A stretch of DNA of 64,000 nt from Agelas oroides (taxonomy: Eukaryota > Porifera > Demospongiae > Agelasida > Agelasidae), in NCBI GenBank assembly GCA_949130485.1, contig OX422183.1, positions 9,204,636 through 9,268,635 on the forward strand. The letters run 5' to 3'. Below are positions 24,116 through 50,284 of the stretch, piece after piece; within the stretch, counting starts at the first letter, position 1; each line of letters starts with the position of its first letter. The translations under genes were made by a program, and so were the position numbers. The notes under the pieces were generated by a model, which saw only the letters and a program-made list of their open reading frames with translations, did no database searches and had not been told where the DNA came from.

Positions 24116-24504
24116 CCATAACATCTAAAATTTATTTCCAGCATGAGACAAGTATCTAAGCATTCATGATTGTAATGTTCGCATTCTGGTGTAGGGAGAA
24201 CTTGGAATGAGTTCAGTACTACCATAGACGTGGATATGAGCATTGCTGTACTAATAAGGTATTAAATGCAAGAATTGTGTGTGGCAAGATTGTATGTGAC
24301 ATTCATGATTCATGTACGTACCTCACCAAGACTGGTTTTTGGCTGTGTGGCTTGCATACTTTGCAGTTCGACTGAGAACTAGCTATGTGATGTGTTTGAT
24401 ATGCTAGACCTTCCTCCTTCCTGCATAAGTGAATCTCTACTTCTATCCTTTATTCTCAACCCTTGTACAAACCAACACCATTACCGTATTGACCAACTTC
24501 TCAT

Positions 24505-24768
24505 TTCCTTCCCTCCCCTTCACTCTCCCTCCTCTCCTCCTTCTGTCCCTCTTTCCCTCCCCCCCTCCTTCCTCCATCTTCTTCCTCTTCCACTTCCCCT
24601 TTCCTTCCTCTTCCCTTCTCCTCTCCTCCCCTTTCTCCTCCTCCCTTGTCCTCCTCCCTCTTCCTCCTCCCTCTTCCTCCTCCCTCTTCCTCCTCCCTCT
24701 TCCTCCTCCCTGATCCCATTCCTCTTCCCTGCTCCCCTTCCCTTCCCCACCCCTCTTCCTTTTCAATT
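24505..24768. repeat. Pyrimidine-rich tract with tcctcctccc repeats
   Basis: About 260 bases are almost only C and T on the plus strand, including five consecutive copies of a cctcctccctctt unit near 24648-24712. Long open frames here (Pro/Ser/Leu or Gly/Glu/Arg) are products of composition, not genes. Confidence 0.9.
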
Positions 24769-24951
24769 CATGATGCAGCACGGTATATACATAACTCCCT
24801 TCATGATAATACAGTACAACAGATTCAGTGATCCCTTTCCCAAAACCACTGTGTCTGCCATTACTATACCGTAGAGTGCTATGTACTATGTACTGACATC
24901 AAGATAATGCATGATGTTGCTATAGACTGCTCCGAATGTCCTATGCACATA

Positions 24952-25414
24952 CAGTGGAACCCAGCTTAACGGACACCCCTGAGCAGTGGACACCCACGAT
25001 ATACGACAATTCTGAAAGTCCCAACTGTCCTTCCATTGACTTCAATACTTAAGCAACCCCTGAACAGCAGACATCCCGCTACTCCATATTGTGGACAGTT
25101 TTCGTGGTCCCAATTGTACACAAGCAATACTCAACGACCCCAATTTAGCAGACAGTCATCGACCTTTTCAGCAAAATTGTCCACCATTGCTGCTGTAGTT
25201 AACAACTTGACATTAGATTAGTGCTGTTGTACTTGTAGTACTAGCATTCCCTGCCAGCGTACAACAAAGGAAAGCTCTGAAAATGTAGCCACATATGATT
25301 ATGCAGTACCACACCTACTAGAAATAAATCAGAAGCCCCTGAGTTAGGGACACCTCACTACAAGGGACAAAAAAATTGGTTCCCAATGGTGTCCATTATA
25401 GAGGGGTTCCACCG
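24952..25414. mobile_element. Tc1/mariner-type MITE
   Basis: The end cagtggaaccc is answered by gggttccaccg, and TA dinucleotides flank both sides. The interior repeats phrases such as gacacccctgagcag. The TA target and 463-bp length fit a non-autonomous Tc1/mariner element. Confidence 0.75.
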
Positions 25415-26544
25415 TAAGTCAGAAGTTTATATGAAGTGTTATTACCTACTCTTCTATATATATAGTGACACTGATTACTCCTTTGTCTGCAGGTGAGAGT
25501 CCCCTCTAGCCAACCTCACTGTTGGTACTCATCACTTCAAGATCCTACCTCTATGGTAGGCAGTCTCCGGCACACCCATTCAAGTTCACCATCAACTAGC
25601 TATCAATCAACAGTGAACCGGCATGTGCATACTTTAATATTAAAATTATTATGCAACTGATTATTGTCCCTCCAAGTTGTAGCCTCATTGGAAGCGATCA
25701 AAAACTGGAGGCGGGAACGGCCTGGGAACGAGGCTATCCAAGTTGTACATAGCCTCATTCCCAGGCTCTCAAGCCCCCACCTTTTTGGCAATAAAAGCTT
25801 TGGGGCGCGGAGCCTGGAAATGAGGCTACTCTAACCCTGCATGTACTGTAAACACAGATCATTTTACTATATGCTGTGTATAACACGGTCATGTGAAACA
25901 ACTATAGTCCTAGCCTATAGTTTCTTAGTACAGGGAACTCTAGTTAAACCTACAATACTCCCCTGGTTCCCTGCACTGTAGAGTGGCTGGGTCAGGTCTC
26001 GGCCAGGTCATGTTGGTACACACTGCACTCATCTGTGATCCTGGGACCAGCCCTGGACTGCAACTGTATAGGTTATGCTGCTGCACTTCGGAAGTTATCA
26101 ATGGACCCTCTGCTTGGAGGAGTGGGCTCCCCAGATCAGCAATTGATAGATGCTAGCCGCCCGCTCTTATACGCTCTTGCATCTATCAATTGCTGACGCA
26201 ACACGTACACAGACCATGGATCATAAACCTTCACCCTCGGGCTAGGATTAAATTGTTTATGGCCATAAACCCCTGTCTACTGTGGTTTATTTGTTATATT
26301 CTCCACCCTGATTGGTCCTTGTTGTCACTTAGTAAACACACATGGTACATGTACGTAGTCTTCACTTTTTATACTGAAAACAAGATGCATCATTTTACAC
26401 CTTCCTGTGGTATATATATGAAACAGAATCTACAATTTCCTGTCAAATAATACCCACCTGTAACATGAGATTACGAGTACGCGTACTTATCCATGCACAG
26501 GCGTGGGCGTGGAGTTCTGGGCACGGGATCGAGACTAATATGCT

Positions 26545-26596
26545 ATGGCTGTCAGAATATTGTGCTTGTTGGGATCCCTAGCACTGGCAGCTGTAG
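26545..26596 (+). CDS. Gene A exon 1: signal peptide
   Basis: Encodes MAVRILCLLGSLALAAV, a short basic start and a hydrophobic core, then donor G|gtaagtacg. It is the only copy of this exon in the window followed by usable receptor exons. Confidence 0.75.
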
Positions 26597-27245
26597 GTAA
26601 GTACGTAGTGTAAATGTTTCCTTAGCCAGCTAGCTCACTGTTGGGGTTTTGTCTTCTCGTATGCAAAGTGCTTGGATCGGGTGAGGTTTATGTGAAGCAG
26701 GCTTAGGGATAATAACACATTACGTATATGTTACGTACTATGAAGTAACCAAGCGACTAAAAGTCTGTATAGCCATTTGAACTGAATGCAGAACAGTATG
26801 TGGGGCCAAGGAATCAGTATTTGCAGAGCAAACAGGTTGTTTGGCTAGATTACCAGTGCAGTTCCAGTCACATCCACTGACTGTACAAAGGGTAGCTAGT
26901 CAGGCCATTCCAATTTAATTTTATGTTTCTCGGACAAATCAAATTTGTATTGGGACCCGGGTGGCAGGCAAAAAAAAAAAAAAAAAAAAATGAATGTCAT
27001 TTAATTTCCGAAACAATCACCTCGTGGATGGTTTCTGCCTCCAGATCATCACATCCAAACTTGAGGAGAAGGGATCCAAAACTATCATCCCAAGAGCACT
27101 TCAAAATGGTTCGCTCTTTCACAACTGTCTGCGAGCGTTCGACCATTATGCTAAGCCAAGCGACAGTACTAGTGCTGCTAGCCATTTTCCAAGTCTATTT
27201 TATATGACCATGTGTAGCAATTAAGTCACGTGATTACTTCAGTTT

Positions 27246-27276
<31 letters not shown>

Positions 27277-30200
27277 GACTTTTGGGAAAAATTGACCCGC
27301 CGGATCCGAGAAACGTAAAATTAAATTGGAATGGTGTCATTAATATGTCCTGCATACAAGTGTTTGCGACCGGGATCAAAATTGAATCAAGCGATCAAAG
27401 CCCTTTTTGGGGGCCGATCATAAATTTTGATCGCAGTCGTAAACACTTCAATAGGCGACATACAAGTGACCACCCCTTGCCATAGCTAGTAGCAGGGTTT
27501 GCCACTGTCTAGCTATACCACTGTCGATCAACCTGAACTGTACAATCCATCAATGTTCAGTAACGGTTTATGGATGCTTAGTGCAGGTTGGGCCATGCAG
27601 GCACAAAATCGGGTACAATCAAACAGCATCCCACAAAGTGTGCTAACTGGATGAAGCATGGTCTGGTCCCAAGACCCTCAGTACAGTACGCACCCTGGTC
27701 TGGGGACAAGACTTAATGGAGCATTGCTTATGGTCAAGTGACTACTAGAAGCGTAGGGCTAGTGGTGCACATAGAACCCTTCGGCTTAACACACAAATGT
27801 TGTAGTTGGTAAGAGGCCCATAGTGAAAGGTGAATTCAATTTACACAAACAGCTTTTGTTTGTTTGGGACAAAAGTCACTCATTGGATGCTGCTAGGTGA
27901 GCTCTAGATCGACCGCTATGGCATTTTATGAACATAATTTCTGTGGGGATTCCCAAAGAACCACTCAAATGCTTCAGTTATAAGGAAGAGCTATAGCAGT
28001 CGATCTAGAGCTCACCTGGCAGTATCCACTGAGTGAGTTTTATCCCAAACAAACGAAAACTGTTTGTGTAAATCGAGTCTACCTTTCACTATGGGCCTCT
28101 ATGGCAGTCAGTATGATTATGTCATTCACATAGCACTAACTGCTACCAGTTAACCTCTCTGGTGCCTACCCATGCTAGCTTGCATGAGAACACTTACCCT
28201 AATTTAATTTGTACTTATTTTGTAGTAGCTAACCTTATCTGTAGGTTTGATGTGTATAAACTACTAGCGGTGGCACTATGTAGGAATACACAAACTTTGA
28301 TTGGCATATTATGTACTATGTACGGAAAGAAACTTTAGAAATGAACATTTTACAGGTATCAGTGGTGATGCCATACTTGTAGCCCCTGGTGTGTCAGTTG
28401 AGTTCACATGCACTGGACGAGATGGTGAATTTCAACCTACCTGGTTTGTAAATGGAAGAGTAGCAGTAACAGTGGGAGATTGTTACAGATCAAGACTCAT
28501 AAGAGCTGAGAACCCCCAAAACGTCACTGCCACACTAACCATCAATAGCAACCGTGACACTTGTCATACATTTAATGTCTTCTGCAGAATTTACAGAGAG
28601 TCACAATTCACATTCGTGCACAACACTACACTGGTAGTTCAAGAAGGTTAGTTGCAGTCCAACTACCATTACATCACAGAGTTTCCCTCCTGTCATACTG
28701 GCATTCATCAGTGTGTCACAAGCCACTAACTAACTTTATAATCTGGTCTCCCACAGGTCGCCTTCCTTCACCTGAAAATGTTCACATCAATGAATCAGTT
28801 AACTCCTCAACCATTAGATGGAGCCCACCTTACTCTTCGCTGAACAATGACATCATTCATGTGTACCCCCACATCACCCAGTACACAGTATACATTACTG
28901 ACAATTATACCGGCAACAGTATTGTAGAAATGAATGTAACAAGGACACAATTTACTTTTAGTATCTCAGAAGATGTCCTGTCTCCCATCTACCAAATCTC
29001 AGCTTGGAATGCTGGTGGTGAAGGTGAAATGAGTGACCCAGTGCATGGATGCATTCCACGCAGTAAGCTATTTGCTAGTCTCATTCCAAGACCCCCAGAA
29101 AGACCCTTATAGTAAGAAGGAAGGAGGGTCTGGTACAAAAGTTTTGAGCACCAAGGAATTTTGGAGGTATATAGCAATCTGATTGGTTCATTTGCCAATT
29201 ATCTTGTATGTACTCATCACACCTTTACAGACCTTCCAATTTACTGAGGCCCAGGAAACAACTTTGAAGGCTTAGCTTTAGTGGAATTCGATATCAATGC
29301 TAGCCTATGGTTAGACTATGTACTATATTCACCAGACCCTCCTCTCTCATGTGTGTGTATCATACCGAGGGTCTGGGAATGAGACTACCTATCAGTTTGT
29401 TGACTGAGGTGGCAAAAATCTATAGTAATAAGTTTTCATTCTGCAGTTCCTCGCAAGATTACAACTGGAAATGTTATGCTTACAGCAGCATCTAATGTTT
29501 TACACATTCGCTTACATGTAAGTTCCCAGTTAGATTCAAAATAAACGGGATATACCCTGTTCGCCTACTCCCATTTCGCCTACTCGCGTTTCGCCTACTT
29601 TAGACCAAAAAGTGGCATTTCGCCTACTCTTAAAAAAAAAAGACCTTTCTAACAGTTCTATCTACTGTTTTGAATGTAAATACACTACAGAAATATTAAA
29701 CTTGACATTGCAAACATGATCAGCCTATCGTCTCCTTGCCCATCTTCTGCCATGGAGAAATCTTCGCCCAATGCTGTCGATGTCCACTCAGGCATTGGTG
29801 GAAGTCGACTCCTACATCACTTTTATGCCCAAATATAATTTTCTTAAAGAGTAGGCGAAATGCCACTTTATGTTTTAAAGTAGCCAAAACTGGAGTAGGC
29901 GAACAGGTACCAACTCAAATAGGCATGCTATTTAACTACATGTGAGTATTTTTATCATACAAGAGTGCATAAGAATGGGCGGCTAGAGTAAGAGTGTGTA
30001 ACTACGTAAAATTCAAAACCGGGCGCAATTTACCGCCAGTACTAAAAATAGTAACACGCACTGCGCACGCTGTGTTGACATAAGCCCTTATGCATTGTTG
30101 CTAAGCGCACACGTGACCGGATGTTCTATTTTTAGTACGGTTCAATAATTTTGCCCGGACTACGGGCTTCTATTGGAGTTACACGCTCTTACTCTAGCCG

Positions 30201-33200
30201 CCCATTCTTATGCGCTCTTGTCATATATATATTAAGTTAAAGCTCCCCACTTGTTGTGATGTCTCACTTCTACAGGTGACTGAACCATGCAAAATGAGAA
30301 TACCAAGTTATTTTGTTATTACTGTGATGACCCCTGGTAGGACAGTCAACACAACAATTGTACCACATGATCATCTGTCAGGATCCCAACTTGCCACTAC
30401 AATTGAACTGCATCAAAATATGAACATGTGCAGTCTTCTTGTCAATATCAGAGCAGGGAACAGTGCAGGAATGTCCTTACCCACTGAAATTGAAGTTGGT
30501 AGGTCACATCATATGATGGCAAAGTTAAGCTGTGTACGTAAAATTTTCTTTTTGTTTGTTTGTTTGTTTGTGTGTTTTTGTTTGTTTTATTGTACATACA
30601 GAATGTCCCACTGTCAGCATTTCTACCACCAGTGCTGAAGCAGTAGTAATTGATCACTCAGACAGTACTCCCACCACAAACATTCCTATCACCACCACTG
30701 AAACCAATGCAACCCTACCAGTCAACGATGATGGAGCCTACATAGAAGAGGCTTTCAAAACAACGGGTGAGATTTGTATCATTGCAAGAAGATAAGTAAA
30801 CATGATGGCAGTGGCGTAGCCAGGCTGGGGCACACTGGGGCACACTGGGGCACGTGCCCCAGCAACTAGAGGCCGTACCCATACGATTTATCGGCGCTGA
30901 TATAGTATTGTTGTCGATCGCGAAGCAGGCGCTAAACGGTCTTGAAATCGAACGGCGCAGTATTGCTACATAGAATTACGAGTCTCGTACGTTCACCGTA
31001 CGCGCGAATTTGCCGTATAAGTGACGTACACTGCACTATGATACGGCCTCAGAACCGAGCTGGGATGCTAATAATTTTCTGTGGGAGCATGGCCCAGACC
31101 CCCCTCCCCCGCCCAAATGTTTCTGCGCTTCGCGCAGAAGTTCGTACAAACATAGTGTGCCCATGCTGTGCCCTAGCATCCACAATGTCCTGGCTACGCC
31201 ACTGCATGATGGTATGCATGCACTAGCCTCATTCCTCTCAGATTTTATTTTTCAGCCATGGAGAAGAAGCTGCAAGATAAAATCTGGGAGTAGCTGGGAA
31301 TAGGTATGCACATTGCTGGTCATTACCATCATTTAGCATAACGTCTAACTCACGCTAATGTATGGGAGTCAAGGGGAAGCCTTGCAGCTGCACGCAGCTT
31401 ATAAAAAGCCGTTTTTTTTACTACAAGTCATGCGAGAATCCGTATCAGGTACTACAAGTCACGTGCACTGCGTTGAAACGTGCAATGAAATCGAAGGTTC
31501 GTACGATAAAATCATTATCACCATAGTACCAAGCTATACCTGAACAAATATCGCTTGTTTGTTGCTGTTGGCATTGTTGCTCATGCTGCGCACTCGTAAC
31601 AATACAGACGGCAACAAACTCGTGATATTTTCCGGTATAGCTTTGTACTATGGTGATACTTATATAATATGTATTGTTTACCTGTGGCAGTTCCAATCAG
31701 TAGTCAGTAATGCTTAAAATTCTAGTGTATGTGGCAATCTCGGGTATATTATTCCATTACGTTGTTAGATTGCATTACTTCATTTAAAGCGCTGCATGTA
31801 GCACAGAACTTCTGTTAAGGGTGGGGCTCATATGTGCTGGGTTGATGCACAAATGCCTGACACGTCTGTGCAGTGCATATGAGCCCCGCCCTTAACACAG
31901 GTTCTGTGCTATAGTGCTTTGAACGTGGTAAAGCATTCAAAATACACACAGCGGAATAATGTTCGATTTCTACCCGAGACTGCCACGTATAATTAAGTAA
32001 TGTAGAGCCAAATCTTTTTTCACTCATTTTACTGCAATAACAGGGGTGTTGGAATGGCAGCCACGTCAGTGGCCATGGACGCAAAAAGTTTTGGAAACAA
32101 TTTGGTGCTTCTAGTGTTGCATGCCAACCCCAGCATAGATCGCTTTGGATTGGTTTGCGAGACTATAAGTGCTTTTGTCGATTGAGGGCTGGGGGTGTGG
32201 TCTGTTTTTAACGCTCAAATTTAAAGTCACACTCACAAGACTATGTCCTTTCGCATGTATGTAAGCACATACTGCAGTGCTATAAATGCCTTACCAACCC
32301 TGTTTTCAGTTTACCAACTTTAATACCAAATGTAAAACAGTATAAAAGAATTATTTCCAAGTCTTGCTGATGAGCCTCATCCTCCCAGGAACTTTCCAAG
32401 TGAACGTTTAGAAAGATGAAACCAGTGCTGTACGACTGCAATGGGTAGGATATTCTATGCATGTGGAAGCCTGTTGTCTGACTGTCAAGAAACATCATTT
32501 TGGTCTGAAAATGCTTCAGGAACAACCTGATAGCTTCTTAATTAATTTTATCTTGGGGTGGGTTATGCCCCTAGATTAGCCTCGTTCTGGGAAAGAGACT
32601 AGTCCCCAGACTTCCCTTGTTTGTTTTTTTCGTTCTTCAGTTTGCATTCACTATAATAAACTGAAACAGAAGAGTGGTGAAAAATGGGGAAAGGCCTGGG
32701 AACACCTATCACGTGAAGGACGTCTGGTGGACATGAAGTGGACGTAGGGGGGGAGAGGTCCACATTCAAATAACATACTAGACTTTATCATCAAGTGCTC
32801 CAGTGATAGCTAGGACCCCAGATGTTCACGAGATCGACAGTACTCGGCTTCACCAGTAAGAAACTTGCTCTGTGGTTTATTGCACACAAGTTTGCAGATG
32901 GGCCCCCCAACATCCACCTCACATCCACCAGACGTCATTCACGTGATAGATGTTCCTAGGCCTTCCCCATTTTTTGCCACTCTTCCCGTGTAGTATACTG
33001 AACACAAACCGAAGGACATATAAATGAGGGAGACCTGGGAACGAAGCTAAGATTCCCCTACTTGTTTGTGTGTTTATATACATGCACTAGCAACTTGACC
33101 ACTTCAAAATCTGATGGCTATGGCCCTTTACTAACTGCTCTCCAATTTTTTCTTCAGTCATCATCATTGGAGTCATTCCTGTCACTCTTGGAGTGCTGTT

Positions 33201-36133
33201 TGTGGGAGCAACAGTTGGAATCATGTGTTGTCTAAAACATAACAAAGGTGCGGAACAGTATGTTATATTCTTAAGCATGCATTTGTAGTCTCATGCCCAG
33301 ACCCCAGCCACCCCCTCACGAGAAAAAATGGTCTAAGAGAAGTGCTACATATGGCAGACTTGGATAGAAATCAAATCTTGTTCTGTACAGGTCTTGTGTT
33401 TCAAGCGCATCACTGTGCCACAGCACCGAGCTTCTGCTAAGATATGCACTTATGAGCTCCACCCTTAGTGGAAGCTCAGCACTACAGTGCATTGAACTTG
33501 GTGATGCACTTGAAATATGCGACAGAATAATATTCGATTTTATCCGGGACTGCCACACACTATAACAAAACAATATCACAATATCATTGTTCTTACCTCA
33601 TTCTGGTAATTGGCCCTAGACCTTTGACTTGGTTTGCCAGACCATTTTCTCACCAGGAGGTGCACATGGTCTGCACAAGACTAACCCATATTACAGTAAA
33701 ACCTCCGAACAAAGGACACATTGGGGACAGGCCAGTTGTCCCTTGTAGAGAGGTTGTCTTCTTCTCGGAGGTTTTCTTTTAAACCTATTGGAAATTTCTT
33801 AAAGACGAAAAATAACACTTAAATGTAATATATTCTGCTTCATTTTGATCGTTTTTTTTTCAATAGCAAGATGGCAAGAGCAACACTACTATCATGAGAA
33901 TGATGCTTATATAAAGGACCACCGCTGCGGGTCCGGAATACGGAAGTATCCGTTATAGGCATTCGGTATACTTCCAGTAGGCGTGGTAATCTGTTATTGC
34001 CTGGGCTGTTGAACGTGATGAGGTCGCATTTTTGGACCTCTCCGTTGGTTTACGCTGACGAGAAAGGCTAGCAGGATGAGCAATATAGAGTAAGTTAGCA
34101 ATCATCGGACGACAGGTATATTCGGACACTCAAACACGGAGGGAAAACTGCGTAAACATTCGGCGATACCACAAGACTGTAGCTGAGGTACGTGGTACCT
34201 GGTATACCAAAATTGACGCCCGCGCATTGTTTCCTGTTGGTGCTAGAAGCGATAAAATGGCCGTCCGAAAAACATCAATATTCGGAAAAGTGTATGTATT
34301 TTCAGACACTGTTGTTTGTGCCTTCTCTGAAGCTGCTTTTGGAGAGATTTTAGCATCGATACGATGCCCCAAGACCTCCCCAATTTGCAATATATTTTGG
34401 TAGCGGTAGCTGCTTTGAACACTCAGGGGCACAGCTGAACATGGACCAGTCCGATTCGATCGATATCGGACGGTGAAATTTGTCATTTCTTGCTGTGTTG
34501 TCTGCGTTGAGTAGTTCTCGAGATATAAATATATTTCATGTTTCTTTCCATAAACTACGCTGGTTGATTTATGTGCAGCATAAATAGGTGAGTTCAAACG
34601 ATATCGTGCAATATCTCGAGAACTACTCAACGCACAAACACCGGACAAATACCAGCATGTAGCCAAGAGCCTGTAGATTCTACTGTTGCTAATATGGTGG
34701 AGACTTCAACTTGTTTGGAGACAACACAGCAAGAAATGACAAATTTCACCGTCCGATATCGATCGAATCGGACTGGTCCATGTTCAGCTGCGCCCCTGAG
34801 TGTTCAAAGCAGCTACCGCCACCAAAATATATTGCGAATTGGGGAGGTCTTGGGGCATCGTATCGATGCTAAAATCTCTCCAAAAGCAGCTTCAGAGAAG
34901 GCACAAACAACAGTGTCTGAAAATACATACACTTTTCCGAATATTGATGTTTTTCGGACGGCCATTTTATCGCTTCTAGCGCCAACAGGAAACAATGCGC
35001 GGGCGTCATTTTTGGTACACCAGGTACCACGTACCTCAGCTACAGTCTTGTGGTATCGCCGAATGTTTACGCAGTTCTCCCTCCGCGTTTGAGTGTCCGA
35101 ATATACCTGTCGTCCGATGATTGCTAACTTACTCTAGTGCTCGGTCTTTGAATCCAGCGGTGGTGGCGTTACGAAAGCGGTCGACAAGCGTCCCAATTAT
35201 GTGGGTGTAACTTCATTGTCCGTTTTCAGAGGTAATTTTGTATTGGCTAAGGTACTTTGGGGACTGATCAGTGTTCGTTGTTCGGAGTTGAGAGGTGTCC
35301 GCTTCTCGGAAGTTCGAAATGTATTAGTTCTATAGTAAAATCAATCGGGGGTAAGTGAGCCGTCCGCTGTACGGAGGTTGTCTGCTTTTCAGAGGGTCCA
35401 TTATTAGATGTTTTACTGTATAAGCACAAAAACACTTCCCATCATCAACGTGTTACTTTGCTACATATAAAAGTGAGAACAGCTAGCAGGACACAGTGTA
35501 GCGAGGGGGTGAAGAATGAATAAGTGATGATAAAAATAGGTGGCAACAACTGTGAATATGCACTTTGGGTTGAAATGAGCCTCTCTGTGTATAAGACCAG
35601 GCTGTGGTACTTGGTGAGGCATTGGTAGGTAGTCTTGGGTCCAGAAGGTCTGGGTTCAAGACAAGTCAGCAGGCCGATCACCTAGAACCACAAAGGCAGA
35701 GGAGTGAGGCACAGAGCAGGGTTAAACTTATGCAGCAATAGCCTCATTTCAATTCAAGCCTCTCCCCAGCAGCATAGCCTGCCGTCACACTGTAGGTGGT
35801 GCCATGCCTTGATGATAGCAATGAAAAATAACAACTCCACCTCACACACTTGCTGTTTGTATTAGCATCTCTTCATTACCAGGTATCATAGTGTATGCTA
35901 GTTACTTGCGAATGTCAGGTGGCCTCAGTCTGAACTTGAATAATTGCTTCTACTGACTGTCTGTAATATTATTTTATGTTACATTTTCAGGCAATTTGAA
36001 GAAACGTGAAATTGAGATGAAACTCAACCAGGCATACGAGACTGTCAGTCTACCAAGCCCTTCTAAACCCGCAACACAAGTTTATACTAAGCCATGTCCA
36101 GCTTATGAAAATGTTGTCCGGGCTCACCACTGA
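26545..36133 (+). CDS. Ig/FN3 transmembrane receptor, gene A (8 exons)
   Basis: Exons: 26545-26596, 28356-28646, 28757-29062, 29447-29517, 30276-30498, 30602-30766, 33158-33247, 35991-36133. They sum to 1341 bases, 446 residues plus stop. Every junction is GT-AG and in phase (phase 1, except phase 0 between exons 4 and 5). The product is a type I cell-surface protein: signal peptide, Ig-like domain, two FN3 domains, Ser/Thr-rich stalk, one membrane helix and a 47-residue tail with YETV and YENV. Its first exon belongs to the tandem unit. Gene B is a paralogue with the same layout. A ligand-binding or adhesion receptor is likely; a role in self/non-self recognition is a guess. Confidence 0.85.
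26905..27334. mobile_element. MITE with 30-bp inverted ends, gene A intron 1
   Basis: ccattccaatttaattttat at 26905 is mirrored by the sequence ending attaaattggaatgg at 27334, with about one mismatch. The interior has 21 A (26970-26990) and 13 T next to 22 G (27243-27277). It interrupts an older GTAGTCAC-family MITE, with tca or gtca as the likely duplication. Confidence 0.75.
27335..27479. mobile_element. GTAGTCAC-family MITE, split by nested insertion
   Basis: The right part ends gtgaccaccccttg as at 7163. The left end survives at about 26886-26902 (caaagggtagctagtca) beyond the nested element. The nesting order shows that the GTAGTCAC family moved earlier here. Confidence 0.65.
27814..28098. 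mobile_element. ggcccatag MITE, gene A intron 1
   Basis: aggcccatagtgaaaggtga at the left pairs with the right end acctttcactatgggcct. Inner arms around cactgagtgag/ctcactcattgg also pair. 285 bp. A truncated relative is in unit 2 (14861-15110). Confidence 0.8.
28356..28646 (+). CDS. Gene A exon 2: Ig-like domain
   Basis: 97 codons, phase 1 at both ends. A first Cys in VEFTCTG, the core Trp in PTWFVNG, a TATLTI strand and a second Cys in NVFCRIY give the Ig pattern. Two further cysteines (GDCY, DTCH) could form an extra disulfide. Several Asn-X-Ser/Thr sites. Roughly half the residues match gene B exon 2. Confidence 0.85.
28757..29062 (+). CDS. Gene A exon 3: first FN3 domain
   Basis: 102 codons, phase 1 at both ends. 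PSPENVHI at the start, a Trp in IRWSPP, the Tyr-rich TQYTVYITDNYTG strand and YQISAWNAGGEGEMSDPV at the end follow the FN3 fold. Very similar to gene B exon 3. Confidence 0.85.
29076..29387. mobile_element. tagtctcattcc MITE filling gene A intron 3
   Basis: tagtctcattccaagaccc is mirrored by gggtctgggaatgagacta. The element makes up about 312 of the 384 bases of the intron. It belongs to the genome-wide 'agactcattcc' group of which 12268-12640 is another member. Confidence 0.7.
29447..29517 (+). CDS. Gene A exon 4: second FN3 domain, first part
   Basis: 71 bases: PRKITTGNVMLTAASNVLHI and onward, ending at donor gtaagt in phase 0. Gene B exon 4 is two codons longer and lies at the same position in the domain. 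Confidence 0.75.
29553..29909. mobile_element. ttcgcctact MITE, gene A intron 4
   Basis: The left end taccctgttcgcctactcc pairs with ggagtaggcgaacaggta. The word ttcgcctact recurs four times in the left arm, and gagtaggcga twice in the right. 357 bp. Confidence 0.8.
29959..30221. mobile_element. acaagagtgcata MITE, gene A intron 4
   Basis: The arms are about 45 bp: acaagagtgcataagaatgg at the left and the right end tcttatgcgctcttgt. The short GC-rich centre has no coding. A related gccgcccgctcttatacgct phrase occurs at 26157. Confidence 0.85.
30276..30498 (+). CDS. Gene A exon 5: second FN3 domain, second part
   Basis: 223 bases, exactly the length of gene B exon 5. PCKMRIPSYFVITVMTPG near the start and VNIRAGNSAGMSLPTEIEV at the end are shared with gene B. 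It closes the domain in phase 1. Confidence 0.85.
30602..30766 (+). CDS. Gene A exon 6: Ser/Thr stalk
   Basis: 55 codons rich in Thr and Ser (VSISTTSAEA, TNIPITTTETNATLP), starting with a Cys-Pro pair also found in gene B. It reads as an O-glycosylated stalk before the membrane. Gene B's version is less than half as long. Confidence 0.8.
30809..31204. mobile_element. hAT-type MITE, gene A intron 6
   Basis: cagtggcgtagccagg and its inverse bound 396 bp, with perfect 8-bp duplications catgatgg (30801-30808, 31205-31212). The CAGTGGCGTAGCCAGG end is a well-known hAT terminus. ctggggcaca is repeated three times inside the left arm. Confidence 0.9.
31518..31657. repeat. Hairpin, gene A intron 6
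   Basis: atcaccatagtaccaagcta pairs with tagctttgtactatggtgat across a spacer of about 93 bases. Probably the remains of a small foldback element. Confidence 0.65.
31799..31911. repeat. Foldback ctgttaagg, gene A intron 6
   Basis: tagcacagaacttctgttaa at the left is mirrored at the right by a stretch ending gttctgtgcta. A diverged relative with the same downstream sequence (gaataat...ttcgatt...gggactgccac) lies near 33410-33555 in the next intron. Confidence 0.7.
32577..33049. mobile_element. tagcctcgttc element with nested arms, gene A intron 6
   Basis: tagcctcgttctggg and gggaacgaagcta are the ends. Inside, a second pair of arms (cctatcacgtgaaggacgtc, gacgtcattcacgtgatag) encloses a short centre. 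The same inner arms occur in gene B intron 7 at 38756-39130. Confidence 0.7.
33158..33247 (+). CDS. Gene A exon 7: transmembrane helix
   Basis: IIIGVIPVTLGVLFVGATVG then IMCCLKHNK: one hydrophobic helix of about 22 residues followed by Cys-Cys and basic residues, the usual stop-transfer signal. 90 bases, phase 1 at both ends. Confidence 0.85.
33694..35418. mobile_element. TA-flanked 1.7-kb element, gene A intron 7
   Basis: The ends cagtaaaacctccg and ...ttttactg are inverted and flanked by TA. Both arms hold degenerate copies of a ttctcggaggtt phrase. The centre is taken by a second, nearly perfect foldback (34087-35135). It is likely a non-autonomous Tc1/mariner element with another element inside. 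Confidence 0.7.
34087..35135. repeat. Large palindrome with 417-bp arms
   Basis: Arms 34087-34503 and 34719-35135 are the same length and nearly identical in opposite orientation. The 215-bp spacer has its own stem (34503-34526 with 34611-34634, tgagtagttctcgagatat). The open frames of 178 codons (minus) and 132 codons (plus) share their sequence only because the arms mirror each other. Transcription of gene A would yield a long hairpin RNA. Confidence 0.85.
35991..36133 (+). CDS. Gene A exon 8: cytoplasmic tail
   Basis: 143 bases encode GNLKKREIEMKLNQAYETVS, a Pro/Ser linker and CPAYENVVRAHH before TGA. YENV matches the pYxN pattern bound by Grb2-type SH2 domains (established knowledge); use in this protein is inference. 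Near-identical exons are at 63498 (intact) and 50379 (fragment). Confidence 0.85.
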
Positions 36134-36368
36134 AGGCGCTTTTTTGGATGCAGTATGTATATGACACACAATTGTACACTCAATTTCTTCACCAGTTGCA
36201 TACTTGGGATGATTGATGCCCTGTATACGTATATACCTCATATTGTGTGTAGCCTTGATGCTAGAAAGCTGTTGATCCATTTTGTGGATTTCTTGACCCC
36301 ATGTGTTTTTCGTCTACAGATTGTTGATAAAAATTAATAACCCAGGAGTGCTGAAGGTGGGCATTGCA

Positions 36369-36790
36369 TAGCCTTGTCCCCAAGCCCTGCCCAAAAAATT
36401 GGGAAAAGGGCCTGGTCACACTTAAAATTCCCGTATGTGCTGTGTCAGCAGTCTTCATTTGGGGTAGACGAATCACGTTCATTCATTACTAAATTCTTGA
36501 CTAGGTGATATGGATTCATTCCAAAACCATTTGAAAATGGGAACGAGGCTAGCAGACTCTTAGTATAAAATTATGCCTGATTAGCTACTACTCTCGCCTC
36601 CCAGATTTTGTCTGTAGTCACTTTTTAGCAAGATCTGTTCACCTACTCTTTAATGTCATTGTCAAGAGTAGCTAGCTACCATGTAAGGCACGTGTTACAT
36701 AATATGCTGATTCAGCACATACGAGAAATTTTGCAAGTGTGACCAGGCCCCTTTCATGATTTTTCAGGCGGGGCCTGGGGACGAGGCTAG
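36369..36790. mobile_element. tagcctcgtccc element between genes A and B
   Basis: tagccttgtccccaagccc is mirrored by the right end ggggcctggggacgaggcta. An 8-bp duplication gcattgca flanks it (36361-36368, 36791-36798). The paralogous stretch near 63852 is an empty site, so the insertion is confirmed internally. The 8-bp duplication suggests hAT. Confidence 0.85.
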
Positions 36791-36903
36791 GCATTGCACA
36801 CAAAAGAAAGAGCATTATCATGTGAAAAAACTTTCATGTATTTTTGCATCAGTGTGCCAGCACAAAATAGGGGGAAAACAAGGGTAGTATGTTATATAAA
36901 TAT

Positions 36904-36909
36904 AATAAA
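36904..36909 (+). terminator. Possible poly(A) signal for gene A
   Basis: AATAAA lies about 770 bases after the gene A stop, and a related attaaataag occurs at the matching place near 63956. It is only 37 bases short of the gene B stop on the other strand, so the two 3' ends would nearly meet or overlap. Confidence 0.35.
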
Positions 36910-36945
36910 TAAGTCAAAGCAGCAGAAGGTATGTGATGCAGTGGT

Positions 36946-37265
36946 TTATGATTCATGATGCTCTATTTGAGCATGCTGTACAGGGTCATCACTGGCTGGT
37001 GGCAGGACTTGAGTCTGTTTCACTGCCTCAAGTTGTGCAAACACCAGGTGTGACCCTTTTGCTGGAGCTGGAGGACTGGGTGGTAGCAATAGGTCGGCTG
37101 AGTGACCTGATTCTGTACTGCTGCCTGTTCGTAGTGTTGAAGGGGTGGAGTCTAATGTCTGCATCCGGATTGCAGTATGTTCAGGATCTCTGGCTACTGG
37201 TGTGCTTGTGGTCTGTTCACTGGTAACATAAACTACCTCAGGTACTGGAGGTTTGTAAAGTGGGA
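36946..37265 (-). CDS. Gene B exon 8: cytoplasmic tail
   Basis: About 106 codons. LVFAQL matches the ITIM pattern (I/V/L/S)xYxx(L/V) except that Phe replaces the Tyr. Two real tyrosines lie near the membrane (LYKPP, VVYVT). Rich in Pro, Ser and Thr. No similarity to the gene A tail is visible. Confidence 0.75.
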
Positions 37266-40200
37266 CTGGTCCACAGAGTGAAGGGCTATTTAAAGGTAAA
37301 ATAAGTGATTGTAACAGGTTAGTAATACATCCACCTTAATTGCACATTGTACTGACCCACCAAGTGTAAGTTGTGGCCATCACAGGTTACCATAGGCTCT
37401 AAATATGTGTCACTCTAATTCCGTGTCAAAATTAACAATACAGAAAGAATTTTGTGTCAATTGGCAAAAAATGTTAACAAAGTGCATTCTAATGTGTTAT
37501 TGACATTGTTCCACGAGCCATTCTACTGTCTATGCACGAGCTGTCATCGTAAGCTGTCTATTGGCAGGTATAACATGCTCACAACGTGCTCTTGTCACAA
37601 GCGCAAGCGAAAGAAGTGACAATGGCGTCTCACCGTGCATCTCTTCAAGTTCCAGATCTGGGCAAAGTGTTATTGCTGTACAAGAAGGAGACAATTCTCA
37701 TGACCACCACGAAGACACATGCTGTATTGTGGGGCATTTGCTGCGGGAGATCTCCTAAGAGCGCTTCTTTTTGCTGAAAATGGGCGGAGCAATCAAAGTC
37801 GAAATAACTGAACCATACCAGCAAAGTGACTTACTGCAGGGCAGGCTCGAGGTACTGTGCGTGTTGGTTCTTGAGCACCATGGCTAACTTTCTCGTTCTC
37901 ATACAAGGGGTGGGGGCTGCAGCCTCCCTTCTTTACTAAGAGTTTGCCAAGGTAGCACGACCCATATTTTATATTGCCAATGAAAGCGAATGATGCCGAA
38001 AGTATTAGATGTGGCATCTCATCGACATTCGAGCATCATTATTGGACCCTGTGACGAGGGTCCAAGTTCAGAAATACATTTTTTCAAAGGGGATATGTTT
38101 TTGGAGCTTCCATGCAGGATGACCAAAAATGTCATCAACGTTTGAATACCAGCTTTGGGTGCTAGCAACTTCTCAACACTCAAGTACCATTCCTCAGTGC
38201 TTTTACGAATGTCCAAATTCAGAAACATGGACCATCGACATTCAAGTAGGTACTAGCTTAAGACTTCTGTGGGTGCTTTGACGACTTGTTGATGTTCGAG
38301 TGCCAATTTTGACAAGGATAATATTTTTAGGGCCTTCCCACCCTTCGTGTGGGAGGGGAGACTCCCTGCCCCCGCGATAGCAGCCCACCTAAGCATGTTC
38401 TATCACCATGTACCTAGCCTTGTCCCCAGGCCCCACCCAAAAAATCAGGAAAAGGGCATGGTCACACTTACAAAAATCCCCATATCTGCTGTGTCAGCAG
38501 TCTTTGTTTGGAGTAGATGAATCACATTTGTCCATTGCTAATTACTAAAATTCTTGACCACGTGAAAGTAGTAGAATCATTCCAAGACCATTTGAGAATG
38601 GGAGTGGGGCTAGCAGACTTTTTATAAACCTTGAATTTCAGAAACTTACAGCACATTTATGCTTGCTAGGCTACTACTTTTGTCTCCCAGGATTTGCCTG
38701 TAGTTGCTCTGTAGCAAAATCTGTTCACCTACTCTGTAATGCCATCATCAACAGTAAGGCCTGGGAGCATTCATCACGTGAATGACGTCAGGTGGACGCG
38801 AGATGGACGTAGGGGGGTAGGGGCCCAACTGCCAAAACAACGCACTGGATCATCCGTTCGAGCGCTCAACTGCAATATTGGACTCCAGACCTTAGCATGA
38901 TCGAAACTACTCGTCTTGACCGGTAAGAAACTCGCTTTCAAGTTTAGTACCGACATATTTGAATATTGGCCCCTCCTCCCCCCCCCCCCCCCCCCACCTC
39001 CCCACGTCCACCTCGTGTCCACTCACATGATGAATGCTCCCAGGCTTTCTTTTTTTTTTGCCGGTCTTCCGTGTATTATTTTGAACACAAACAGAAGGTA
39101 AAAGCGGGGGGAGGCCTGGGAACGAGGCTATATGTAATCATATAAGGCACGTAATTGTTACATAATATGCTGACTCAGCACATGCAAAAAAAATGTTTGT
39201 AGGTGTGACCAGGCCCTTTTCTTGATATTTTGAGTGGGGACGAGGCTAGTATCAGCTAAAATCCTGCATCTGCCCTTGTCACAGGAATTGTTTCAGTGTT
39301 TGTGGTTCAGTCTTCACACTCTAATGTTGCATCATATTAAACTTTTGTGAACAATAATGTTTTCGATTTGTGCATCATCCGGGAAAAATAATTGTTTTCT
39401 GAGTGGCACATATTTAGAGTGCATATAGTAGTGACATTATAGGGTCAATTTTGCATACCTTTTTGAGTAGTAGTTTTGAGTTAGGTCTGAGGGATTTCCT
39501 ATAAGGAAACAAAAATACACACTCATACGAAGCTGTATAGGACTTTTATTGTTATGCTGATCTTACCTTTGTTCTTCCTTCTTTTATATTTCCTGTATAG
39601 TGTACAGCATATGATCCCAGCCATTGCTGCCATAGCCACCACTCCACCAACAACTGCAAAAACTAAAAGATAATAGGAAAGCCATTTAAAGGAAACCAAT
39701 GAAGTTGCATGATTATGATCAAGAGAAAGTGAAAGACCGGCAGTGGCCGAGAATTGAACCCAGGACACCTGGCTTGTGCAGCCAGTGCTCTGCCACTGAG
39801 CTATGACAACCGGACAACCACCAGCCATCACAATCCTCTATATGTACTGCACTGAGTTCTGACGGCACATACTGAGTGGCTGCCAGGTGTGCGACTGAGG
39901 CATTTCAGTCCCATTTGTGCAGTACATATAGTAGATTATGAGGGGCTATCTAGTTAACTTATTTTTTAGCCTTGCACCTACATTTCTTCCTCTTTGTGGC
40001 CTACGTCTAGGTACAAGTTAAGACTAGGAAATATTTTGAGACCCTTTGTTATCTTTTACTTGGGCATAGCATGGCTACTGTACAGTCACATTGTATCATC
40101 ACTTGCGAATGATTCTGCGATCTCAACTTCACCTAACCCTAACCCTAACCCTAACCCAGGCCGTTCGTAGGAGAAATTTTTTTTTAATGAACTGGTATGA

Positions 40201-42334
40201 GGCTAGCATGCTGCATGCTGGTCCAGCCTGCTGTACACCATACTGTTCAACAGTATTGTACTAAACTAAGTTACATGGAACCTCCTTTAGCTGGCCTTTC
40301 AAATGAGACACACTACCTGCACTGTATTACAATTTACCTATTAAGGTGGTAAGATCTTCCCCACTTTCAGTACTGGTAGTCTGGGTAGAGTGTGTGCTGC
40401 CATCTGGACAACCTTAGTACAGAGACAAAAAATAGTTTTGACAGTCAGAAATTCAAATTTCAATTTTGCTAATCTAATTATACAGAAGCTCTTGCACTTG
40501 AGTGAATCCAATTTAGTGGTACCATGAAGTGTTCTTGGCAAAACTGCAGAGAGAGGCTGTCAATGCACCAGAAGGGTTTCTTATCAAAACATCACTTGGG
40601 ATTAGAGTTAGGGATTTGTTTGGGTGGTGACCATGTTTAGCTTACAAGGTTACCATATGCACTTTCAAGTTTTGCTACAAATTGAGTGCCGCATGAAAAT
40701 TCACTGTAGTACCATGAAAATTCATCCAGACTTGCAAATTCTATAGTCAAAGCATTACGGGGAATTTTACTGGCAGATGATAACAGGCAATACTGAGTTT
40801 TTGTGAATCTAATCTAGCTGAAGCCATACCAACTTCAACTGCTTCACTGGGTGCAGACATTCCTGCACTGTTTCCTGCACTGATCCTCACATGAAGGGAG
40901 CACACATCCACACTTGGAGGTAGACTGATGTTGAAATCTGCAACTGGTTGTCCTGGGTCATGATCATGTGACATGTTTAATACACCTCCAGCAGACATCA
41001 TCAGAGTGATGAAAAACAACTTGGGTATTCTTCTCGTGCAGACATTATTCACCTGTAGAAACAAAGATTAGGTTGAACTTTCAGGCTGTAACAGTGATAC
41101 CTCTAAAAGATGTGAACTCACGTCAATATGAATATGCAGACCATTTGGTTTTACTGTGTATGCAACAGTGATATTCTCAGCTGCAATCCTGTGAGGAACT
41201 GTGATAGAGAGAGAGCAACAAAGTAATGAAGAGTACAGCATAAATTATAGCAACAGTAAAAGCTGGTGCATGCAGTGGAAAGGCCCAGGAAATCCTTAGC
41301 TTTTTTACCTTGAAGTGTGCTCTCCTGAATTGGCTCACTCAATTCACCCTCACCACCAGAGTTCCAAGCTGAGACTTGGTACATGAGGCATGAACCATCG
41401 TCTGAAGTGTTGTAGGTGAAGTGTGTCTCTGTTACGTTCTCTGTGACAATGTTCCCAGTATAATTGTCAGTAGTGTATACAGTGTACTGGGTGATGTGAG
41501 GGTCCACATGAACGGTGTCATTGCTCATTGCCGAGTAAGAAGGTTTCCATTCAATGATTGGAGAGTTAACATTGATGTGAAGATTTTCAGGTGAAGGAAG
41601 ACGACCTGTGGGAGACCAGAGTGTAGAGGTAGTGGCCTAGCTAATTGCAACACACTTGATGCAACTGTATGATTTGTGATGTGTCTTGCTAATAAGATGG
41701 TAGCTATACCGTATTTCTTTTAAAAATGTGATACTTACCTTGAAATGTCACTATAGTGTTGTGCAAGTACAGGGCTTGTGATTCTCTGTAAATTCTGCAG
41801 TAGACATTAAAAGTATCACAAGTACGGTTGCCATTGATGGTTAGTGTGGCAGTGTAATTTCGCCCCTCAGCTGTTCCGAGTGTCGATTTGTAACAATCTC
41901 CCTCCGTTTCTGCTACTTTTCCATTCACGAACCAGGTAGGTTGAACTGCAGATTGATCAGCTGGCCCAGTGCATGTATTAAACTTGACTCTCACACCAGG
42001 GGCTACTTTCATCATGGCATTACCAACGGTACCTGCATGCAAAAACAAAATTTACATTTCTTTCTGTACAGACCACCAAAGTTGGTTATTCAGTTTCTAT
42101 GCTCTTTGCATGTATATCCTTGCTTTCATGAGCCACGCGACGAACAAATCGAGCACGTCACAGCTGTTCATTGTGTTTCGATGTGCTCGATTTGTTTGTC
42201 GCAGTCACTGATAATGTACATACAGTTAGGATATAGCTACACAGTACGCAGCATGCAGATAACGAACCTCTCAGCAACGCAGTGAAAATTGCGGAGACGG
42301 TGAGAATTGCTACCAGTGAGAGCATTCTGACCAT
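36946..42334 (-). CDS. Ig/FN3 transmembrane receptor, gene B (8 exons)
   Basis: Exons in transcript order: 42334-42268, 42032-41739, 41605-41309, 41198-41122, 41052-40830, 40412-40338, 39653-39567, 37265-36946. They total 1440 bases, 479 residues plus stop, with all phases agreeing. The layout matches gene A: signal peptide, Ig-like, two FN3, short stalk, membrane helix. The tail (about 106 residues) is unrelated to A's, with LYKPP, VVYVTS, a proline-rich PPSPPAPAK and HLVFAQLEAV. The last exon's acceptor (ggaccag|tc) was chosen because it restores the frame; an earlier acceptor does not. The gene runs tail-to-tail with A. Confidence 0.82.
38415..39248. mobile_element. tagcctcgtccc element with nested element, gene B intron 7
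   Basis: The outer ends are those of 36369-36790 but it is twice as long, because 38756-39130 is a second inverted-repeat element (ctgggagcattcatcacgtg mirrored by cacatgatgaatgctcccag). A run of 17 C sits at 38979-38995. The copy at 36369 shows the uninterrupted state. Confidence 0.75.
39567..39653 (-). CDS. Gene B exon 7: transmembrane helix
   Basis: VVGGVVAMAAMAGIICCTLY followed by RKYKRRKNK. It keeps the Cys-Cys pair at the inner membrane face that gene A has, then a strongly basic stop-transfer stretch. 87 bases, phase 1 at both ends. Confidence 0.82.
39735..39815 (-). mobile_element. tRNA-derived SINE head, gene B intron 6
   Basis: On the minus strand it carries a good A box (tagctcagtgg), the stem-loop ctggctgcacaagccag and a B box (ggttcaattct). 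The acceptor stem pairs only partly and T33 is missing, so a SINE or tRNA pseudogene is more likely than a working tRNA. It lies in sense orientation in the intron. Confidence 0.6.
40132..40157. repeat. Interstitial telomere-type repeat
   Basis: About four copies of CCCTAA in a row inside gene B intron 6. TTAGGG is the animal telomere repeat. A tract this short usually marks a repaired break rather than a former chromosome end. Confidence 0.85.
40338..40412 (-). CDS. Gene B exon 6: short stalk
   Basis: 25 codons: CPDGSTHSTQTTSTESGEDL and onward. It starts with the Cys-Pro pair of gene A exon 6 but is less than half as long. The acceptor (actaag) has a weak pyrimidine tract, so the edge is less sure than for the other exons. 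Confidence 0.65.
40830..41052 (-). CDS. Gene B exon 5: second FN3 domain, second part
   Basis: 223 bases. VHVRISAGNSAGMSAPSEAV-type ending (the actual start of this block is LHVRISAGNSAGMSAPSEAV) parallels gene A. Enters in phase 0 and leaves in phase 1. Confidence 0.85.
41122..41198 (-). CDS. Gene B exon 4: second FN3 domain, first part
   Basis: 77 bases: PHRIAAENITVAYTVKPNGL and onward to donor gtgagt. An ENIT glycosylation site is present. The domain is split by a phase-0 intron exactly as in gene A. Confidence 0.78.
41309..41605 (-). CDS. Gene B exon 3: first FN3 domain
   Basis: 99 codons, phase 1 at both ends. RLPSPENLHI, the Trp in EWKPSYS, PHITQYTVYTTDNYTGN and YQVSAWNSGGEGELSEPI match gene A over most of the domain. 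Confidence 0.85.
41739..42032 (-). CDS. Gene B exon 2: Ig-like domain
   Basis: 98 codons. Cys in FNTCTG, Trp in PTWFVNG, TATLTI and Cys in NVYCRIYRES mark the Ig fold, with the same extra cysteines (GDCY, RTCD) as gene A. Changes against gene A are concentrated before the Trp and around residues 50-65. Confidence 0.85.
42268..42334 (-). CDS. Gene B exon 1: signal peptide
   Basis: MVRMLSLVAILTVSAIFTAL plus two residues, then donor G|gttcgtt in phase 1. It is unrelated in sequence to gene A exon 1, so the two genes have different 5' ends. A dead relative of this exon and its upstream flank lies at 48714-48764. Confidence 0.75.
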
Positions 42335-43501: not shown

Positions 43502-44127
43502 GCACGTTCTCCTTCAGCATTGATACCATGTCTCAGTTCCATGGTGGACAGCTCCAGCACCAAGTCTTGGTACTGAGCCAGAGCCTTGGTGACCCACACC
43601 GACAAATGGTGAAAGGGGCACAGTTCATTCTACCTGGTCAGTATAGTGGTTAGTGATATATTAAGACTCAAGGATTCTAAGGCTTAGTGGAAATCAGCTG
43701 AATGTTACCAGACCCCACCCGCGAGGAGAGGGTCTGGTGACATTCGGCTGATTCCTCGGGCTTCATTAAAAATTTATAGCTTGCTGTATGCATAGTTGAG
43801 AACTGATAACTAATTTACGTGCCAAAAAGTGCTGTGTCATCGTGCTGAAGTAGCCAAGGATTTCCGGTGTTGTGCTACAGATTGTGTTTCTGCAATGTGA
43901 TTGGCAGAGGGAAATTTCTCTCCAGAAAGTAATCAACGTTATTGAAACCCGGGAGATCGGCTGAATGTCACCAGACCCTATCCTTGTGGGTGGGGTCTAG
44001 GCACAAGACTACTTCTTCTATTGGTCTTTCACCAGGCTTGCCAATGGATGGAAAATCAACCCTCCTGATCATGCATGACTTGTGTGACTCATGTTGTCTT
44101 CTGGTTTCGTACATCCACAATACTTAG
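43502..44127 (+). CDS. Tentative two-exon fragment with P-loop-like motif
   Basis: 43502-43636 (acceptor gtcgcag, donor G|gtcagt) reads FSIDTMSQFHGGQLQHQVLV and onward to FILPG. 44036-44127 (good pyrimidine acceptor tctttcaccag) continues in phase as LPMDGKSTLLIMHDL and so on to a stop. The join creates GLPMDGKST, which fits the Walker A pattern GxxxxGK(S/T). No upstream exon was found, and the motif can arise by chance. It may be the end of a gene, or nothing. Confidence 0.3.
43688..44005. repeat. accagacccc inverted-repeat fragments
   Basis: cagctgaatgttaccagacc is mirrored by ggtctggtgacattcggctg (43688-43752), and another ggctgaatgtcaccagaccc lies at 43961. MITE remnants in the intron of the tentative fragment. 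Confidence 0.6.
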
Positions 44128-45181
44128 AGTCACTCAAAGATCAGAGCTGTGTTGAAGGCATGATATCAAGCGTAGTAGGTCATGTGTGTGAGTACATATG
44201 ATCAGTGAGTTTACAAGCACAATAGGTTGTGAGTTGATGTAGGTGAAACTGTACAGGTTGAATTAGGTCAGTGGTAATTGCACACCCCAATCTAGTCAAT
44301 CCACAGATACTACTCTTTCCTCCAGGAGAGTGTGCCTGTAGGCAATTTGTTGTTGAACTGATATAATTGATCAAACAGTACACTACTCTCTCAGAAAAGT
44401 TAGCAAATCAAGCTACACACCTCCTCTTTACCATACATATAGGCCTTTACCCTTATATGGCATTAGGCCATACACTATTGTAGCTTGTTCTGCAACACAT
44501 CCCACATAGTTCAATGTTGTATTGTGGCTCAAGTTTCAAGTGTAGTGGTTAATCTTGCAAGCCACACCCTTCGAAGCGTGTGGCTTGTGAGACTAGTGTA
44601 GCTAGTGGTAAGGTTGGAATGCTACATTATAATGATGAGACTCAAGCAAGCAAAAATTATCCAGACTGCAGTTGTACTCAGGCAGGTTCTAATCTGTTCC
44701 TGTGGTCCAATCCCTAAATAGTTTTGAGAAGTAATTGGAATATCATAACATGTGCATAACATCCAATATATGAGTGGTTATTGTTTAGTGGTATGCTGCT
44801 GCTAGCTCTAACTATAGCCACACATCTGTCCCTCTGAGTCTGACTACGATGACAGTGTAGCAGACTCCTAGCCCTTTACTGCTTCATAACACACACACAT
44901 GTACACACAGAGCAATGCAGGGTATCAACAGACAGGATGCAGACTGAATGATGGCAAAGAGATGACAGCCGACAACAGTGGGTGACCACATTGGGTGGAT
45001 ATAGTGAGGCAGGAATGCTACCACAAACAACCTGCTTACTACACAGTAGGGTATGAATGGGGGGATTCCCAGGGGATTCCCTCTTCTGTATAGCTTTGTT
45101 CCCAGATTCAACCATGGTCTGGGTATGAGTCTATGAGACCAAAGGGAGGGATACAACTTACAGTACAGTTTTCCTCAACAA
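44128..45181. other. No gene seen
   Basis: Unique-looking AT-rich sequence with a short hairpin (aagccacacc/gtgtggctt near 44562-44591) and a gactcatacccagacc-type MITE end near 45105-45135. No supported exon. Confidence 0.5.
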
Positions 45182-49090: not shown

Positions 49091-49098
49091 TCGATGTC

Positions 49099-50247: not shown

Positions 50248-50284
50248 CTACAACCCCCTAGCACCCCCCTATTCCTACACCCTT

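Follow-up and report, generated by a model that had tools for sequence, protein, structure and literature searches.

Two convergent genes for predicted receptors in a sponge contig

The stretch of DNA considered here (the window: 64,000 nucleotides of contig OX422183.1 from the sponge Agelas oroides) carries two predicted receptor genes that face each other tail to tail. The first, L, lies on the plus strand (26545–36133) and has 8 exons coding for 446 amino acids, while the second, R, occupies the minus strand (42334–36946), with 9 exons and 502 amino acids. When rebuilt from the raw sequence, both frames are open from the start codon (at 26545 in L, at 42334 in R) to the stop, which closes at 36133 and 36946 respectively. 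The outer ends of both genes match exactly those of an earlier sequence-only reading, which had reported them as a convergent pair with matched ectodomains.

The predicted layout is the same for both: a leader, an immunoglobulin (Ig)-like domain, two fibronectin type III (FN3)-like domains, a stalk, a single membrane span and a tyrosine-bearing tail (Table 1). Hydropathy gives each protein a hydrophobic N-terminus and one internal span, as in type I single-pass membrane proteins. All 15 introns are of the GT-AG type and the seven junctions shared by the genes have identical phases (1,1,1,0,1,1,1), in line with the earlier reading; R has one additional junction, of phase 2. The equal length of exon 5 (223 nt in both), which the earlier reading had singled out, is also real, but it reflects compensating indels rather than conservation, since in the alignment of this second FN3 half-exon L has three separate gaps of a single residue each and R has one gap of three residues.

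A second candidate for L exon 1, at 27106 (MVRSFTTV...), resembles the R leader by eye. It was dropped because it is without a phase-1 donor (a phase check made by eye only), whereas 26545–26596 has one. The introns also hold elements of their own. The last intron of L contains an inverted repeat (34086–35136) with arms of 418 nt that are 98% complementary and 215 nt apart, which looks like a recent palindromic mobile element. Intron 6 of R has a tRNA-like match on the minus strand (39739–39810; Rfam tRNA, 31.4 bits) overlapping a 66-nt repeat that recurs at 24035–24100, and this is probably a tRNA-derived short element.

Table 1. Exons of L and R, the insert between them, and further copies of their parts in the window
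Feature	Position	Strand	Description
L exon 1	26545–26596	+	signal peptide MAVRILCLLGSLALAAV; donor GTAAGT; phase 1
L exon 2	28356–28646	+	Ig-like domain; L/R profile weakly matches an antibody light chain in PDB (E 0.0037)
L exon 3	28757–29062	+	first FN3-like domain; Pfam fn3 E 0.02, under curated cut-off
L exon 4	29447–29517	+	beginning of second FN3-like domain, so called from position and reading
L exon 5	30276–30498	+	223 nt; remainder of second FN3-like domain, so called from position and reading
L exon 6	30602–30766	+	Ser/Thr-rich stalk
L exon 7	33158–33247	+	predicted membrane span and juxtamembrane part, GIMCCLKHNKG
L exon 8	35991–36133	+	cytoplasmic tail with AYETV, VYTKP and AYENV; stop
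Mobile-element-like insert between L and R	36369–36789		421 bases; terminal inverted repeats (17 of first 20 bases)
R exon 9	36946–37285	-	Pro/Ser-rich tail with LYKPP; stop
R exon 8	39459–39498	-	40-nt tail exon GNPSDLTQNYYSK
R exon 7	39567–39662	-	predicted membrane span and basic juxtamembrane part GIICCTLYRKYKRRKNKG
R exon 6	40338–40412	-	short Ser/Thr-rich stalk
R exon 5	40830–41052	-	223 nt; remainder of second FN3-like domain (putative FN3)
R exon 4	41122–41198	-	beginning of second FN3-like domain (putative FN3)
R exon 3	41309–41605	-	first FN3-like domain; Pfam fn3 E 0.21, under cut-off
R exon 2	41739–42032	-	Ig-like domain
R exon 1	42268–42334	-	signal peptide MVRMLSLVAILTVSAIFTALLRG; last codon split
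L leader-exon copy	4735–4780	+	readable, phase 1
L leader-exon copy	6158–6197	+	readable, phase 1
L leader-exon copy	13241–13291	+	frame broken: in-frame stop, phase 0
L-type tail fragment	50379–50470	+	last tail codons and 3' flank; broken upstream
Second tail-to-tail junction	63458–64000		L-type tail exon and 3' flank, empty insert site GGCACTGCA at 63846, R-type 3' end
Second L-type tail exon	63498–63640	+	open to stop; 129/143 bases identical to L exon 8

The Ig and FN3 identities of the exons rest on matches that are weak but concordant. A combined L/R profile searched against PDB (E up to 1) gives five matches, in the expected order along the protein: an antibody light chain for the Ig part (E 0.0073) and four FN3 domains for the FN3 part, from PTPRF (0.012), DCC (0.29), neogenin (0.52) and titin (0.6). 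With the Ig-exon profile alone and the same threshold, 16 of 24 matches are to Ig domains, either of antibody V regions or of Dscam (best E 0.0037), in a database that is rich in antibodies, and a C..W..C pattern of the Ig type is visible on reading both proteins. Pfam fn3 is matched at E 0.011 and 0.063 by the preliminary ectodomains; Table 1 gives the values for the full models. The second FN3-like domain matches nothing on its own in the Pfam and PDB profile searches. A WSxWS motif in the membrane-proximal FN3 domain is a mark of class I cytokine receptors, and it is present in neither protein. Pfam finds no catalytic domain in the tails.

Ectodomains, membrane spans and tails compared

L and R are of common descent. 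Their loci align (blastn) in a main block with 554 of 766 columns identical (E 2e-125), spanning the Ig exon, the short intron and the first FN3 exon, followed by a block over the 223-nt exon (165/241, E 2e-24) and a short one at exon 4 (59/91, E 8e-04). At the protein level, 165 of 289 aligned residues are identical over exons 2–5 (57%). The likeness of the ectodomains is therefore far above chance. Over the same exons the ratio of nonsynonymous to synonymous substitution rates (dN/dS) between L and R is 0.61 (bootstrap 0.45–0.83), which indicates that the pair taken together has been under protein-level constraint since the duplication. Domain by domain, the ratio is 0.89 for the Ig exon (0.49–1.75), 0.39 for the first FN3 exon (0.22–0.67) and 0.67 for the second FN3 (0.38–1.18). 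A faster evolution of the Ig exon than of the first FN3 exon is suggested rather than demonstrated by these values, because their intervals overlap.

Outside the ectodomains the likeness fades by degrees. The leaders, which probably share ancestry, align with a score of 29; shuffles average 18.3, and 59 in 5000 do as well. The membrane spans alone score 36 (mean 23.8; 111/5000). For span and tail together the score of 61 (mean 26.9) is reached by only 1 of 5000 shuffles, but that value is inflated because shuffling splits the hydrophobic block; for the cytoplasmic part from the CC pair onward, the score is reached by 445/5000. On reading, GI[I/M]CC is present in both span exons, NKG closes each of them and GN opens the exon that follows, so the span and juxtamembrane part look homologous. 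From exon 8 onward the tails are no more alike than shuffles (2174/5000 for protein, 1219/2000 for DNA), and the distal tails appear to be either unrelated or diverged beyond recognition. The earlier description of signal peptides and cytoplasmic exons as unrelated was thus overstated for the leaders and the spans; in the distal tails alone is there no likeness above shuffles.

The tails might instead be homologous along their whole length and merely diverged, with R having gained a longer Pro/Ser-rich end. The shared ends of the span exons and the GN that follows fit such a descent, and by eye each tail has SPS and then YxxP, while the shuffle results from exon 8 onward speak against it. This alternative, which is compatible with the overall reading given below, we regard as quite possible, though on somewhat less than even odds.

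Second copy of the tail-to-tail junction and the surrounding cluster

The L tail exon with its 3' flank (35951–36368) and the 3' end of R (36829–36949) recur side by side at 63458–64000, where an R-type stop triplet lies at 63997–63999 on the minus strand and the copy is cut by the end of the window. The insert between L and R lies between two copies of the 9-base sequence GGCATTGCA (36360 and 36790), a target-site duplication, and has a relative at 38415–38756. It is missing from the second junction, where a single GGCACTGCA forms a clean empty site. It follows that the element inserted into one of the two junctions once they had become separate, and that the tail-to-tail arrangement predates the insertion.

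The second tail exon differs from L exon 8 by 14 bases, 9 of them silent and 5 replacing (13 codons changed, one of them twice). With an expected replacement share of 0.75, the probability of five or fewer replacements among 14 is 0.002, so the tail exon of one copy or of both has been under selection. The first 29 codons, which include YETV, hold seven silent changes and no replacement, with a cut-off picked after seeing the data. The identity of the exon (Table 1) is no higher than that of the upstream 40 bases of intron (37/40) and little above that of the 3' flank (176/202). In this copy the tyrosine of YTKP is lost and YENV has become YVKV.

Other copies of the tail and leader exons are scattered through the window. 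Downstream of the L-type tail fragment at 50.4 kb, on its 3' side, an R-tail-like stretch (51031–51105, minus strand) has the orientation of a third tail-to-tail junction. Its profile E is 0.096 and its tblastn E 1.7, and its DNA score of 16 equals the best of 500 shuffles (mean 10.6); the likeness is marginal and no more than a possibility. The three copies of the L leader exon carry parts of intron 1 and are located in a tandem array; in two of them the leader is still readable and in phase 1.

To look for further ectodomain exons, profiles of the L/R exons were run over 2203 open stretches, each 20 amino acids or longer, from both strands of the window. None turned up in the stretches searched near the second junction, the 50.4-kb fragment or the leader copies. 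The best further matches listed have E 0.13 for the Ig exon, 0.28 for the first FN3 exon and 1.9 for exon 4; for exons 5 and 6 and the span, searched at E up to 1, the best are 0.2 for exon 5 and 0.12 for the span, with none for the stalk. Pfam Ig and FN3 models find nothing on the plus strand of 44001–64000, 4501–14501 and 16501–26501 (three frames). An exon-5-like stretch near 61.3 kb on the minus strand, the one with the profile E of 0.2, was rejected for want of DNA support: it scores 11, where shuffles average 10.6 and go up to 17. Taking copies and fragments together, we read the L/R pair as part of a birth-and-death cluster of putative Ig/FN3 recognition or adhesion receptors.

The rest of the window is rich in repeats. 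The tandem array (2482–21063) has units about 8.2–8.4 kb apart, each with a minus-strand open reading frame (347, 357 and split 205/149 amino acids); the two frames that were tested, out of three copies, are weakly like HNH_2 (E 0.0015 and 0.0007, under cut-off), and the repeat copies listed are mostly 93–100% alike, with one at 71%. Within it, Integrase_p58_C matches at 8864–8962 and 17281–17379 on the plus strand (E 3e-06 and 8e-06, the second just under cut-off) are probable retroelement remnants. SH3_Tf2-1 was also matched in the plus-strand Pfam scans of the window. On the minus strand, a 638-amino-acid open stretch at 54777–56693 with a reverse transcriptase domain (RVT_1, E 1e-29) marks a retroelement, which we take to be of the type lacking long terminal repeats. 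Repeated units at 59504–61294 hold similar minus-strand open stretches (e.g. 60387–60734 and 60738–61073), up to 94% alike. Inside this block a Med12-like Pfam score at 60422–60481 on the plus strand (E 2.8e-05, 24.9 bits against a cut-off of 25), where no single stretch passes alone, is probably a chance or compositional match.

Interpretation and comparison with known systems

The most probable explanation, to which we give a probability of about 0.72, is that L and R encode type I single-pass receptors, are paralogues derived from an inverted duplication and form one unit of a locally duplicating, decaying cluster. The comparisons above support predicted single-pass receptors of Ig-FN3-FN3 type whose ectodomains match while their distal tails differ, and which sit in a cluster that duplicates; a role in cell-surface recognition or adhesion is the most likely one. 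Several observations weigh against this explanation. Every Pfam fn3 score is under the curated cut-off, no Pfam Ig model is matched by the preliminary ectodomains or the full models, and R gives comparably weak scores, also below cut-offs, to DAG1 (0.14), DUF7932 (0.17) and THSD1_N (0.17). The other 8 of the 24 PDB matches of the Ig-exon profile are to nitrophorin 4. AlphaFold models of the Ig exon and the first FN3 exon have a mean predicted local distance difference test score (pLDDT) of only 49.6 and 46.2, and a fold search with the Ig-exon model yielded nothing interpretable and was not used because the models are poor. Splice donors are weak in places (GTGCGG at L exon 7, GTTCGT at R exon 1) and the gene models may miss further stalk exons. 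The pairwise dN/dS cannot tell whether both copies are constrained.

The sequence itself shows the anatomy of the genes, their descent, the constraint on the pair and the clustering; as regards localisation, ligand, signalling and cell type, what we infer is the following. L and R would sit at the cell surface, where the Ig end may bind a neighbouring cell or an extracellular ligand. The tails may then signal through phosphotyrosine/SH2 or proline-rich contacts, and would do so differently: L has YETV, YENV and YTKP; R, which lacks YxxI/L/V, has YKPP and ends in a Pro/Ser-rich stretch. On this account the two would be ordinary recognition or adhesion receptors with diverged outputs, and not a proven opposing pair.

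The sequence-only reading had gone further and pointed to vertebrate paired receptors, which often send opposing signals. In a true system of this kind L and R would share a ligand or bind allelic forms of it, and opposing signals would come from their unlike tails, comparable to the paired receptors of vertebrates and the fester/FcoR genes of Botryllus. Similar ectodomains joined to distinct tails are a trait of paired receptors, and L and R have it: the ectodomains are 57% identical and the distal tails are not alike above shuffles. Immunoreceptor tyrosine-based inhibitory and activation motifs (ITIM and ITAM), by their usual definitions, were looked for by regular-expression scan and are in neither tail, and neither span has a charged residue (D, E, K, R or H). 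These results give no support to a pair of the classical activating/inhibitory kind, nor to opposing signals. In its favour, the L tail has two YxxV motifs and the R tail none, the tail-to-tail junction has been duplicated as a unit, and dN/dS is higher for the Ig exon than for the first FN3 exon, with the overlap of intervals already mentioned. Y-x-x-I/L/V is described as a core tyrosine motif of unknown function that is present in the partner of an activating receptor (PMC12065747). At 57% identity, however, a shared ligand cannot be assumed, and on balance an opposing pair is unlikely. Slightly less likely still is a broader idea, that of a cluster of convergent pairs in an early-branching animal, with the ectodomain shared within each pair and differing tyrosine-based tails, serving self/non-self recognition through a non-ITIM, non-ITAM code of its own. 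Least probable is that one or both genes are decaying, the pair being without present function in a cluster that is mostly pseudogene debris: the broken leader copy at 13241, the mere tail fragment at 50.4 kb, the lack, in the stretches searched, of an ectodomain exon by the second junction or the leader copies and the many repeats in introns fit such decay, but L and R each have an unbroken frame, across 8 and 9 exons, and the ectodomain dN/dS is below 1.

For now, L and R offer a well-formed case of an Ig/FN3-type receptor family that occurs in a cluster, and they are useful mainly as a lead. Should the two genes be expressed and the Ig exon prove polymorphic, the locus would become a tractable candidate for recognition, and from the repeated tail-to-tail unit one could learn how such receptor pairs originate and spread. 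The second junction and the leader copies point to where further members may be sought.

Among familiar receptors, PTPRF (LAR), DCC/neogenin and Dscam have Ig followed by FN3 domains and one span, and their FN3 or Ig domains are among the weak PDB matches of L and R. The sponge proteins differ from these in having only one Ig and two FN3 domains and, by Pfam, no catalytic domain in the tail. For sponges, the literature passages available place IgSF (immunoglobulin superfamily) proteins in adhesion (PMC11999971) and mention large numbers of Ig and fibronectin domains (PMC4704026), the combination of SRCR domains with Ig/FN3 (PMC4772301) and a Geodia receptor kinase that has Ig-like domains (PMC12018476); an L/R-type gene pair is not described in those passages, nor in any open-access title or opening of an abstract that was found. 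Scans with two short peptide patterns each matched 24 stretches in a viral collection and 25 in a prokaryote collection, none of them confirmed as relatives, a result that carries little weight for an animal gene.

The likeness to the Alr, FcoR and vertebrate paired receptors was judged by their descriptions rather than by sequence comparison. The vertebrate FcR- and KIR-like receptors and the XFL receptors of Xenopus resemble L and R in having similar ectodomains with different inner parts and in being clustered; birth-and-death evolution is described for these clusters, with YxxL/I/V motifs in the tails, and in pairs of the FcR/KIR type the inhibitory form carries ITIMs while the activating form joins an ITAM-bearing subunit (PMC2413239). 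L and R, in contrast, have no short-tailed activating form with a charged span and no ITIM, and FN3-like domains are present instead of Ig only. In Botryllus, the fester/FcoR genes of the fuhc locus are adjacent receptor genes kept as pairs, as are L and R, and FcoR use an ITIM, a hemITAM or the core YxxI/L/V motif (PMC12065747). L fits that core motif loosely, with two occurrences in its tail, and R does not. The FcoR ectodomain also differs, with a variable-type Ig, a sushi and two C2-type Ig domains (PMC12065747) against the Ig-FN3-FN3 of L and R, which have no ITIM. The Alr1/Alr2 family in the allorecognition complex of Hydractinia consists of clustered single-pass IgSF membrane proteins, with 44 further gene models thought to be pseudogenes (PMC11067881), and is like L and R, with their predicted Ig-like domain, in that clustering of single-pass proteins (PMC11067881, PMC11999971); on Hydractinia candidates ITAM/ITIM are reported, and the L and R tails have none. 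A polymorphic ectodomain linked to fusion or rejection would be the mark of an allorecognition receptor of the Alr or FcoR kind; L and R were read from one haplotype. No named family is claimed for the sponge genes; L and R belong among the clustered single-pass Ig/FN3-type receptors, which are a known kind.

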